Assembly: GCA_021790305.1 (NCBI GenBank)
Contig: JAJYED010000004.1
Coordinates: 1-57,351, forward strand
Direction of reading: 5' to 3'
Source: Microcaldota archaeon
GTDB taxonomy: Archaea > Micrarchaeota > Micrarchaeia > Micrarchaeales > CABMGC01
DNA: 57,351 nt
Both the position numbers and the translations under genes were made by a program. Of the stretch, positions 33,703 to 57,347 are shown one piece after another. Positions within the stretch are counted from its first letter, which is position 1; every line of letters begins with the position of its first letter. Below the pieces are notes generated by a model. It searched no databases and was not told where the DNA came from. It saw only the letters and a program-made list of their open reading frames with translations.

Positions 33703-33803
33703 TGGTGCAGGGAGAGAGATTTGTTCAGTGTTATTGAACTCTCGTAGGCCTAAGCCAACAGATCTTGAGTCTGTCGCGTTTGACCAGGCTCCGCCATCCC
33801 TGC
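33703..33803 (-). tRNA. tRNA-Leu (CAA) with 13-nt insertion/intron in the T-loop; 3' CCA encoded
   Basis: minus strand GCAGGGA TG GCGGAGC..GC G ACAGA CTCAAGA TCTGT ..long variable arm.. GAGAG TTCAATAACACTGAACAAAT CTCTC TCCCTGC ACCA. Confidence 0.88.
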
Positions 33804-33914: not shown

Positions 33915-35354
33915 ATGAGAGTGAAGAAGATTGATGAGTATAGGTTCAGGATAGAGAAAGACGCCTCTAGCGGCATGAATACAGGCGTGGTAATGTACTC
34001 CTCTGAAAAGCTTATGGCCAATCTTAAGAATGATAGGACGATGCAGCAGGCCGCAAATGCGGCAACGCTCCCTGGAATACGGGGTAATGTGATGGTTATG
34101 CCTGACGGGCATGAGGGGTATGGTTTTCCCGTAGGAGGCGTAGCTGGTTTCGACGCTGATGAAGGGATAATCTCTCCTGGGGCGATAGGATTTGACATAA
34201 ACTGCGGGATACGTGTCATAAGAACCAATCTTGAAGAATCAGATATAAGGAAGAATATGAAAAAACTCTCTGATGAGATATTCCTGAATGTGCCTAGCGG
34301 GCTTGACAGCAGGCTCAAAATAGGTTTTGAGCCTTCGGATTTAGAAAGAGTGGCTCAGGAAGGTGCAGCATATCTTGTAAGCAAGGGCTTTGGAGTCAGT
34401 GAGGATATAGAGCATATGGAGGAGAAGGGCTGCATGGAAGGGGCGGATTTCTCAAAGGTCAGCCAGCGTGCAAAATCAAGAGGAAAGAATCAGCTTGGCA
34501 CTCTCGGAGCCGGCAATCACTTCCTTGAGATACAGAAAATTGATAAGATCTTCGACAAGAAACTTGCAAAGGCTTATGGAGTCTATGAAGGACAGATAGT
34601 GATCATGGTGCATACAGGCTCACGGGGTTTCGGCCACCAGATATGCAGCGATTATCTTCGCACACTTGCGGAATATCAGGCAAGAAAGGGCATACAGATA
34701 GTTGATCCGGAGCTGAGCTACGCGCATGTTAAGAGCAAAGAGGCAGAGGACTACCTTAAGGCTATGAAGTGCGGGGTGAACTTCGCATTTGCAAACAGGG
34801 AGATGATAACGCACATAATAAGAGAGAGCTTTGAGAAGGTTATGGGAAGGAGTGCTGAGGAACTGGGAATGAGCTTGCTGTACGATCTTTCCCATAATAT
34901 AGCAAAGCTTGAGGAGCACAAGGTTGAGGGTAAAAAGGAGAGAGTATATGTGCATAGGAAGGGAGCTACAAGGGCTTTTGCAAAAGGAAGGAAGGAGATA
35001 CCTGAAGCTTATAGGGATTACGGGCAGCCTGTGCTCATACCCGGAAGCATGGGAACAGCCAGCTACATACTTGCAGGGGGAGAAGGAGCGATGGAGGAGA
35101 CTTTCGGTTCTGCGTGCCATGGTGCAGGAAGGGTGATGTCAAGACACCAGGCACTGCGCGAGATAGGAGCGGAGAAGACAATGGCCTCTATGAAGAGCAA
35201 GGATATAGAGCTCAGGGTGCATGACAGGAGGCTGGTAAGCGAGGAATCGGAGTGGGTATACAAGGACATAGATGAGGTAATAAGAGTGGTGGAAGGGGCT
35301 GGGCTTGCACTGCCGGTATCAAGGAATGTGCCCATAGCTGTGATAAAAGGCTGA
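33915..35354 (+). CDS. rtcB: RNA-splicing ligase RtcB
   Basis: MPDGHEGYGFPVGGVAGFD, GAIGFDINCGIRV, LGTLGAGNHFLEIQ, VHTGSRGFGHQI, SACHGAGRVMSR. Confidence 0.95.
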   Translation: MRVKKIDEYRFRIEKDASSGMNTGVVMYSSEKLMANLKNDRTMQQAANAATLPGIRGNVMVMPDGHEGYGFPVGGVAGFDADEGIISPGAIGFDINCGIRVIRTNLEESDIRKNMKKLSDEIFLNVPSGLDSRLKIGFEPSDLERVAQEGAAYLVSKGFGVSEDIEHMEEKGCMEGADFSKVSQRAKSRGKNQLGTLGAGNHFLEIQKIDKIFDKKLAKAYGVYEGQIVIMVHTGSRGFGHQICSDYLRTLAEYQARKGIQIVDPELSYAHVKSKEAEDYLKAMKCGVNFAFANREMITHIIRESFEKVMGRSAEELGMSLLYDLSHNIAKLEEHKVEGKKERVYVHRKGATRAFAKGRKEIPEAYRDYGQPVLIPGSMGTASYILAGGEGAMEETFGSACHGAGRVMSRHQALREIGAEKTMASMKSKDIELRVHDRRLVSEESEWVYKDIDEVIRVVEGAGLALPVSRNVPIAVIKG

Positions 35355-35451: not shown

Positions 35452-35471
35452 AATGAGATAAAGGTCTCATT
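35452..35471. terminator. possible hairpin between convergent genes
   Basis: AATGAGA-TAAAGG-TCTCATT, perfect 7-bp arms. Confidence 0.35.
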
Positions 35472-35997
35472 TAGATAATTTATACCTCTTAATTGTTTTA
35501 AAACGTCCTGTTTGCCTCTCTTCAACAATGTAGATATAATTGATTTTATGTATTCTTTTTATTTTCTTTGAATTCACTTCGTTAAATGCGTTTTTGAACT
35601 TGTTCTTTTGTATCTTATCTCCGACTGCGATATGTGGAATCCATAATTTTGTGGTATAATCAGTTGAAAATTTCTTACTATATAATTTAAAAAGATGATT
35701 TATTGCTTTATTCAACCTAATTAAGTCGCTTGTTCTTTTTATCTTATAGTATATCCTTCTTTTTGACCAATTAGTTAAACCGACAATCTCTATTTTGATG
35801 GGTTTAGTTTCAGAACTTATTTTCTTTAGTTCTTTTTTTATTTCGTTTAGATTTTTTATTTTTCCGATCTGGAAAGTTATGTGCGGATAATTATCTGAAG
35901 CTCCAGTTATTCCATTATATTTTCTTTCAAAGTCCTTGAAAAGTTTCATAAGTTTTTTATCGTCGTTTACAATTGATAAGATGTAGATTTTTGACAT
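35467..35997 (-). CDS. 2H phosphoesterase / 2'-5' RNA ligase-like protein
   Basis: two H-x motifs: PHITF and PHIAV; fold-typical length. Confidence 0.75.
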   Translation of the reverse strand: MSKIYILSIVNDDKKLMKLFKDFERKYNGITGASDNYPHITFQIGKIKNLNEIKKELKKISSETKPIKIEIVGLTNWSKRRIYYKIKRTSDLIRLNKAINHLFKLYSKKFSTDYTTKLWIPHIAVGDKIQKNKFKNAFNEVNSKKIKRIHKINYIYIVEERQTGRFKTIKRYKLSK

Positions 35998-36049
35998 TTT
36001 ATTCCCTCTTTGGTCCACCTATAAGATTACTTTTGCCTTCTGTCTCTAC

Positions 36050-36871
36050 TTATATCCCTGCAGCACCGGCCACGTTTTTGATACGTTTCTTGTATACATT
36101 GTATTTCGGAAGGTCTATGAATGAAGAGATCATATCGAGAAGTTTTTCTGCGCTGTCGAACTCTTTCTTCATTGCAAGATGCCTTGCAGCATAGAATACC
36201 GCATTCAGCTCCCTTTCACGAAGCAATTCGTTTATCTTCTTCTCTGCATCCTTTTCGTTGGTCTCTGTTGCGAGTGCCATCTTCGCATATTTGAATGCAA
36301 GAGTGGTGTTCATCTGCTGGTCCAGTATTATCGATGCGTGCGCATACCTCTTCAACTTTATCTCAGCCATCGCCTTTATGAAGAGTGAATTCTCGTCAGA
36401 GGCTTTTGAAAGTTCGAGGATTTCTATGCTTTTGTGAAGGCACTCCCTGTTTCTGGATTCGAGATGCATGGCATTATACTTGTTCCTTTTAGGCTCGTCA
36501 TTCCTGTTGTCTGCATTTCTCTCCATGAATGCCTTCATGTTATAGTCCACATCCAGATAGGTTATATCTGAAAGTGATCTGTAGAGAGAGGCAAGAGCGT
36601 ATAGCACTTTTGGATCTGCATTTGTGCAGAGCTGTTCTGCATTCTCAATGGCTTCAAGATACGCCCCTTTAGCTATGGATTGGCTTATGCCACCGAGCTT
36701 GGATGCGACTACAGGATCAAGGATGTTCTTCTCTCCAGGCACCACTATTGATTCGCATAGCGGGCATATGGAATAAGGACCTTCTGCGCACATGTATTCT
36801 GTTGAACAGTAGGCGCACTTTGCCTTTGATTCTGGAAGCTTGAATGCCTTTGCATTATGATACAGGCCCAT
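36050..36871 (-). CDS. zinc-ribbon protein with TPR-like helical repeats
   Basis: CAYC...CPLC N-terminal ribbon, alpha-helical remainder. Confidence 0.6.
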   Translation of the reverse strand: MGLYHNAKAFKLPESKAKCAYCSTEYMCAEGPYSICPLCESIVVPGEKNILDPVVASKLGGISQSIAKGAYLEAIENAEQLCTNADPKVLYALASLYRSLSDITYLDVDYNMKAFMERNADNRNDEPKRNKYNAMHLESRNRECLHKSIEILELSKASDENSLFIKAMAEIKLKRYAHASIILDQQMNTTLAFKYAKMALATETNEKDAEKKINELLRERELNAVFYAARHLAMKKEFDSAEKLLDMISSFIDLPKYNVYKKRIKNVAGAAGI

Positions 36872-36904: not shown

Positions 36905-37564
36905 TCAGCGTTTTTTGAGTACAGCGAATAGGTGCATCCTGTCGAAAGGCATAAGGTCCATTGACTCCACAACCTCGAATGTTCCGGATACCGCCTTTAG
37001 GAATTCCTTGTACACCACTTTCGGATTCTTTGATACGCTGATGCTCTGTGACTTTATTGCAACATATGCATAGCTTCCTTTTCCTAGGAACCTGCTGTTC
37101 TCGATAAGCATCTGCGCCTGATCCCTTGCGGCTATATCCTGATACAGCACGTCTGCAAGGCCCACTTCTTCAGCATACCTCTCAACGTTCCTTGCATTTT
37201 CCAGTATAGGCAGCATATTCTCCCGCTTTTCGCAGACCTTTATCAGATCTCGTACGCTTCTCTCAGATACCTCTACGCAGTAGAGCTCTCCTTCCATTGA
37301 TATTATGTCGCTTATATGGCTGCATGTTGTGCCTGTCGCTGCTCCCAGGTAAAGAACCTTGCTCCCCTTCTTTATCTGCATGTGCCTCATTCCTTTCAGA
37401 ATGGCAGCGGCAAGCTTTGATCTGTAGGGATTCCATAGCCTGTACTCTTTGCCATCCGCTTTAACAAGCTCTTCTCCGTATACCTTCTCTCCCTGTACAA
37501 GATTGACAGTTGCAAGCTTTCCATTCACCCTGAACACCCCGTCGAATACTTCCTTTGCAGTCAT
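36905..37564 (-). CDS. flpA: fibrillarin-like rRNA/tRNA 2'-O-methyltransferase
   Basis: EYRLWNPYRSKLAAAI, VLYLGAATGTTCSHISDII, VLYQDIAARDQAQML. Confidence 0.93.
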   Translation of the reverse strand: MTAKEVFDGVFRVNGKLATVNLVQGEKVYGEELVKADGKEYRLWNPYRSKLAAAILKGMRHMQIKKGSKVLYLGAATGTTCSHISDIISMEGELYCVEVSERSVRDLIKVCEKRENMLPILENARNVERYAEEVGLADVLYQDIAARDQAQMLIENSRFLGKGSYAYVAIKSQSISVSKNPKVVYKEFLKAVSGTFEVVESMDLMPFDRMHLFAVLKKR

Positions 37565-49127: not shown

Positions 49128-49267
49128 GGGGTTGTTGCGTAACTTGGCAGCGCGGCAGGCTCCAGATGTTTATAATCCAATGAGCCTTTCGGCGATGATG
49201 AGGATCTGGAAGTACCGAATAAATATGAAGTAACCTGCAAGTCGGGGTTCAAATCCCCGCAACCCCA
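49128..49267 (+). tRNA. tRNA-Trp (CCA) with ~67-nt intron at 37/38 (49166-49232)
   Basis: GGGGTTG / GCAGG CTCCAG[intron]A CCTGC / CGGGG TTCAAAT CCCCG / CAACCCC A. Confidence 0.92.
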
Positions 49268-57136: not shown

Positions 57137-57228
57137 GATAATACAGAGCGCAACTGGTTGCCTCGTTCTTACAGCAATTACACTGTTCTTCGCGATAAAG
57201 GATTTGAGATGGCGCGAGGCATGAGTTT
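57135..57228 (+). repeat. direct repeat copy 2 (internally deleted remnant of permease 3' end)
   Basis: 57135-57159 = 55803-55827; 57164-57228 = 55877-55941; 49 bp of copy 1 replaced by 4 bp. Confidence 0.92.
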
Positions 57229-57347
57229 GGCGGGGGGGAGATTTGAACACCCGATCTCTAGATTTCTAAGATCATAGCCGAAAGGCTCATTACTCATCAT
57301 GCTATGCATATGAGTCTAGCGCTCTAACCAGGCTGAGCTACCCCGCC
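57228..57347 (-). tRNA. tRNA-Met (CAT; elongator or Ile2 not resolved) with ~45-nt intron at 37/38 (57264-57308)
   Basis: minus strand GGCGGGG TA GCTCAGCCTGGTTAGAGC G CTAGA CTCATA[intron]A TCTAG AGATC GGGTG TTCAAAT CTCCC CCCCGCC A. Confidence 0.9.

Follow-up and report, generated by a model that had tools for sequence, protein, structure and literature searches.

The intron of the tRNA-Trp gene in the DNA analysed here is, with high probability, a box C/D guide that acts within pre-tRNA-Trp to direct 2′-O-methylation of C34, and the same principle would hold for introns of elongator tRNA-Met and tRNA-Ser. It is also likely, if somewhat less so, that in Micrarchaeota these three introns are minimal self-targeting C/D guides for position 34 that track changes of the anticodon, with the Trp guide occurring in a free-standing form as well, and that the Met and Ser introns are the first intronic guides beyond tRNA-Trp, the latter being the first position-34 guide for a tRNA-Ser. 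The window, by which we mean the whole stretch of 57,351 nucleotides, is contig C35 of a 742-kb genome in 37 contigs that is ~82% complete. Comparison of prolyl-tRNA synthetases gave Candidatus Micrarchaeota MAGs as its nearest named relatives (94–64% identity).

The box C/D element of the tRNA-Trp intron

The Rfam tRNA model placed an insertion in the anticodon loop of 49128–49267, a gene that ARAGORN run with bacterial settings on this region did not detect. The gene and its intron are laid out as follows.

49128–49267, plus strand: pre-tRNA-Trp(CCA) gene (Rfam RF00005, 46.8 bits; anticodon CCA from direct reading)
49166–49232, plus strand: intron of 67 nt at site 37/38, G37 to A38 (exon stem GCAGG/CCUGC and position of the insertion)
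49180–49183, plus strand: D box AUGA (UUGA or AUGA in 77/81 introns of relatives)
49184–49193, plus strand: capped predicted K-turn stem GCC-UUUC-GGC, strands GCC at 49184–49186 and GGC at 49191–49193 (third-pair covariation; present in the predicted fold)
49195–49201, plus strand: C box AUGAUGA (sequence, compared across relatives)
49204–49210, plus strand: guide AUCUGGA, complement of U33-C34-C35-A36-G37 and intron nucleotides 1–2 (pairing kept in 81/81 introns)
49214–49218, plus strand: degenerate D′ box ACCGA (CCGA, 49215–49218, one base past N+5)
49226–49232, plus strand: intron 3′ end UGAAGUA with the splice-motif strand GAAG at 49227–49230 (3′ end conserved in most introns)

A preliminary description of this DNA had already proposed the D box, capped hairpin and C box, all of which we find where it placed them, and had noted that AUCUGGA is complementary to the anticodon loop; the complementarity is confirmed and covers U33–G37 plus the first two intron nucleotides, with C34 (49162) opposite G49209. 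Both the hairpin and the guide–anticodon duplex are present in the predicted fold of the pre-tRNA (z = −2.4). None of the Rfam C/D families exceeded its gathering threshold in the window, the best being sR1 at 14.2 bits (threshold 45). A K-turn-like match within 67 nt is weak proof by itself, and the case therefore rests on conservation.

We searched 98 relatives with the window's pre-tRNA-Trp; the majority matched across the entire gene, intron included, and yielded 81 distinct Micrarchaeota introns, all from the window's order and representing two of its families. U33, C34, C35, A36, G37 and intron nucleotide 1 were each paired with the guide in all 81, and intron nucleotide 2 in 75. In the stem between the D and C boxes, which could be parsed in 78 introns, the first and second pairs were never unpaired; the third was paired in 55 and covaried, alternating between C-G, A-U and G-C. 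A tetramer ending in GA stood exactly at N+5 for C34 in 50/81 introns, and the same box at registers shifted by −1, +1 and +2 in 3, 6 and 2, a control that carries the same relatedness as the in-register count. The core of the earlier reading, an intronic C/D element directed at the anticodon, is upheld by this conservation; methylation is what the arrangement of boxes and guide would predict.

A second motif may be formed in these introns by the degenerate D′ box and a possible C′ box at the 3′ end, where many relatives have AUGA..GUGA; in the window the 3′ end, together with 49225, possibly serves in addition as a C′-like box. Five introns of the window's genus, that of the window among them, have the D′ box ACCGA at +1. 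Because the congener L036 has ACGA in exact N+5 register, a one-base insertion is a simple account of the shift. The preliminary description was right that CCGA in the window is degenerate and one position off; this does not extend to the order, in which exact N+5 is the commonest register elsewhere. The shift in five genus members, together with the loss of a position-39 guide throughout the order (see below), could mean that the element is decaying in this genus, with methylation of C34 abandoned or redirected to U33. We regard decay as unlikely, since the genus preserves the C box, the D box and each of the seven guide bases, exact N+5 register is kept by its Met and Ser guides, and degenerate D′ boxes are common among relatives in any case.

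A guide for position 39 was sought in the Trp introns of the window's order and not found; no pairing exceeded 4 bp. The same class also contains family f11, whose Trp intron (L287, L294 and L300) has UGCAGGU before the D box, at N+5 to C39, with pairing of 7–9 bp in L287 and L294, and its C34 guide precedes a canonical CUGA (in L300 by direct reading). This two-guide intron resembles the published two-guide form. The window's Trp intron is a member of the known archaeal tRNA-Trp C/D intron type, minus the position-39 guide; its order has retained the C34 guide only and lost the other throughout. The guide also occurs outside the intron. At L288 (G161:C4:12463-12720) a tRNA-Trp gene with a short intron that has no C/D boxes is directly followed by a two-guide C/D RNA, GAUGAAGAUAUGCAGGUUUU-CUGA-ACA-AUGAUGA-AAAUCUGGAGUA-CUGA, whose two guides, read by eye, match C39 and C34 of tRNA-Trp at N+5. 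Since the Trp guide is intronic or free-standing inside one class, the succession of these states is traceable.

Elements in the introns of tRNA-Met and tRNA-Ser

The Trp element is one of a set: a second lies in a tRNA-Met intron of the window, and the genome has a third, outside the window, in a tRNA-Ser intron. The Met gene contains the following.

57228–57347, minus strand: pre-tRNA-Met(CAU), elongator type (Rfam, 54.8 bits), with a 45-nt intron at 57264–57308
57292–57297, minus strand: guide AUGAGU (G57295 faces C34, 57312, at exact N+5)
57287–57290, minus strand: D box AUGA (sequence; comparison with relatives)
57277–57286, minus strand: capped stem GCC-UUUC-GGC (third-pair covariation; present in the predicted fold)
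57270–57276, minus strand: C box UAUGAUC, RUGAY type (sequence; comparison with relatives)

The intron thus contains AUGAGU-A-AUGA-GCC-UUUC-GGC-UAUGAUC, in which the guide precedes the D box. Across 45 distinct Met introns from the window's order the guide paired A31, C32, U33, C34 and A35 without exception; U36 was paired in 43. An NNGA box stands in the C34 register. In a phylum sample combined with fetched loci the element reached most families sampled in the class, and several of these class-level introns combine a canonical CUGA with a long stem, for example GCGCUUACGCGC. It was not found in the four readable loci L307 and L309–L311, nor in Diapherotrites (L283, L284). An identical elongator tRNA-Met gene with an identical intron lies at G000:C12:31368-31487; both copies are close to contig ends and their 3′ flanks are dissimilar.

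Within its intron, the tRNA-Ser(UGA) gene at G000:C18:4201-4321 in the window's genome contains CUCAAGAG-CUGA-UUACAA-AUGAUG. Forty-three distinct Ser introns from the window's order have GAG and then CUGA in N+5 register for position 34, and the guide pairs that position in 42 of them. A CUGA whose N+5 target is position 34, backed by 6 bp or more, was present in 41/43 (1.5 expected from shuffles), and the same count for positions 32, 33, 35, 36 and 37 as targets gave 0–1. Four Ser genes have the anticodon CGA. Three of these, L186, L190 and L232, drawn from three genera of two families, have G rather than A as the guide base; in the genomes G073 and G081 the sister UGA gene retains guide A (L222, L231). 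The fourth, L221, retains the UGA-type guide. Position 37 likewise tracks in 3/4 G-to-A cases. The element was not found in four class-level tRNA-Ser genes outside the window's order. The tRNA-Ser(CGA) genes L250 (G080) and L258 (G064) have an apparent short intron just 5′ of C32, on the 5′ side of the anticodon.

Controls and the splice motif

We scored all three introns by one criterion, under which the box had to agree with CUGA in three or more of its four positions and the guide had to form at least 6 contiguous pairs. The Trp introns passed in 38/81 cases, the Met introns in 31/45 and the Ser introns in 41/43, while shuffles averaged 0.8, 0.8 and 1.5, respectively; such counts overstate significance because related sequences are not independent. 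When the box was relaxed to NNGA the counts were 52, 43 and 41, and 29 of the 81 Trp introns fell short of 6 bp with such a box in register. The guides are short, ranging from 6 to 11 bp across the elements. Sixteen other tRNA introns gave at most 4 bp, and C/D elements were sought and not found in Phe, Thr, Tyr, Ile, Cys and Leu introns and in the Met introns of Diapherotrites.

Several of these other genes have features of their own. T-loop introns, a non-canonical site, occur in tRNA-Leu(CAA), tRNA-Arg(UCU) and tRNA-Ala(GGC) (window 33706–33803, minus strand; L140; L141). The introns of tRNA-Phe, Thr, Ile and Cys genes (L244, L245, L247, L248 and L249 in G080; L024 in the window's genome) share a near-identical AAACUUCUU..AAGAAGUUU hairpin, which looks as if it had been copied among tRNA genes. 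Archaea usually have an agmatidine-modified CAU tRNA-Ile; a tRNA-Ile with a UAU anticodon is present in Micrarchaeota and Diapherotrites (L325, L326, L281, L282) and may replace it.

In archaea the bulge-helix-bulge splice motif normally involves pairing between intron and anticodon region, and the complementarity to the anticodon loop might be no more than this pairing. The splice strand, however, is a separate segment at the 3′ end of the intron. It pairs position 34 in 22/81 Trp, 18/45 Met and 41/43 Ser introns, whereas the guide does so in 81/81, 45/45 and 42/43. In the window's Trp intron it pairs C32, U33 and C35 and leaves C34 unpaired. L186 and L190, two of the three Ser(CGA) genes with a compensated guide, changed the guide with the anticodon and not the splice strand. 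We therefore rejected splice-motif pairing as the source of the complementarity; the comparison of the strands largely refutes it, and we consider it very improbable. The mismatches of the splice strand at position 33 or 34 fit a splicing endonuclease that, in Micrarchaeum, tolerates relaxed splice motifs (PMC12397907).

Guide duplex and splice motif compete for the same bases, so that each excludes the other, and the predicted Trp and Met folds favour the guide duplex in cis. One could thus propose that the elements bind L7Ae mainly for stability of the intron or its circle, or for control of splicing, and that pairing with the anticodon is a structural switch and not a methylation guide. A switch would work without a D box at precisely N+5 and without the same spacing recurring in three unrelated introns, and we give this explanation only a slim chance. 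Methylation guidance remains our preferred reading.

Proposed mechanism and comparison with known systems

Machinery for C/D methylation and for tRNA splicing is encoded in the window.

36905–37564, minus strand: fibrillarin, the C/D methyltransferase (PF01269, E = 2.8e-76)
33915–35354, plus strand: RtcB tRNA-splicing ligase (PF01139, E = 2.1e-165)

Fibrillarin was present in 30/31 relatives searched. Nop and two L7Ae-family genes lie elsewhere in the window's genome, although the L7Ae-family matches may include L30e-type relatives. The interval between RtcB and fibrillarin holds a 2′-5′ RNA ligase/LigT-like gene and an ORF without a Pfam match (35467–36018 and 36050–36871, both minus strand).

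We propose that the precursor itself would provide the assembly site, D-hairpin-C in Trp and Met and D-short loop-C in Ser. L7Ae would bind the D-hairpin-C kink-turn and be joined by Nop5 and fibrillarin; AUCUGGA would then pair with U33–G37 and the first intron bases of its own or of another pre-tRNA-Trp molecule, and the C34 ribose would be 2′-O-methylated ahead of splicing. The Met (C34) and Ser UGA/CGA (U34/C34) introns would act likewise with a guide placed upstream of the D box. The preliminary description suggested that circularisation could complete the C/D motif, a step that the intron may or may not need. Pairing of the guide with intron nucleotides 1–2 points to unspliced pre-tRNA as the substrate, in agreement with publications on Haloferax (PMC2584109, PMC4090602). 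Methylation of position 34 would precede splicing, since splice motif and guide duplex share bases. Standard archaeal C/D guides carry two motifs; the Met and Ser introns show a single one. Since each holds one motif, two precursors may share one dimeric RNP.

In the literature, Cm34 in Met and Trp tRNAs prevents misreading of AUA or UGA (PMC7668247); this logic does not apply to tRNA-Ser, because the Ser codon box is not split. A 2014 review called the Trp intron the unique example of a guide-bearing tRNA intron (PMC4090602), and a 2024 review still lists it as the sole tRNA intron with a modification guide (PMC11408192). Among the open papers searched, we found no description of Met or Ser intronic guides, nor any C/D guide, whether intronic or free-standing, that addresses tRNA-Ser position 34. 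If true, the Met and Ser cases would extend intron-encoded tRNA guides beyond tRNA-Trp for the first time and, with Ser, to a position 34 for which none had been described. Their introns, with an inferred guide role, offer very small one-motif C/D RNAs as test objects. Three guide introns in one lineage and the covariation of guide and anticodon suggest that guide cargo can help to retain tRNA introns.

The closest known system is the box C/D RNA in the euryarchaeal tRNA-Trp intron, Pyrococcus sR50 and its counterpart in Haloferax volcanii (Clouet d'Orval 2001, Singh 2004, as related in PMC7994747 and PMC2584109). Relative to the form outlined there, the introns of the window's order share the tRNA, the 37/38 site, the C/D boxes and a C34 guide that spans the 5′ exon–intron junction; they differ in having no position-39 guide, an often degenerate D′ box and a capped D-hairpin-C stem. 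Their C34 guide follows the C box, whereas it precedes a D box in the Diapherotrites Trp introns L065 and L066. For tRNA-Met, the free-standing C/D sRNA of the Pyrococcus sR49 type has the same target as here, C34 of the elongator (PMC2584109). That paper places Trp guides always within and Met guides always outside the intron; unlike the sR49 type, the Met guide described here lies within the intron of its own target. The Pyrococcus anticodon C/D sRNAs for Leu (CAA and UAA), Met and Trp (PMC7994747) share with the elements described here the box C/D type and the N+5 register to position 34, which among the Trp introns is the commonest one; the Met and Ser introns are set apart from them by carrying one motif only.
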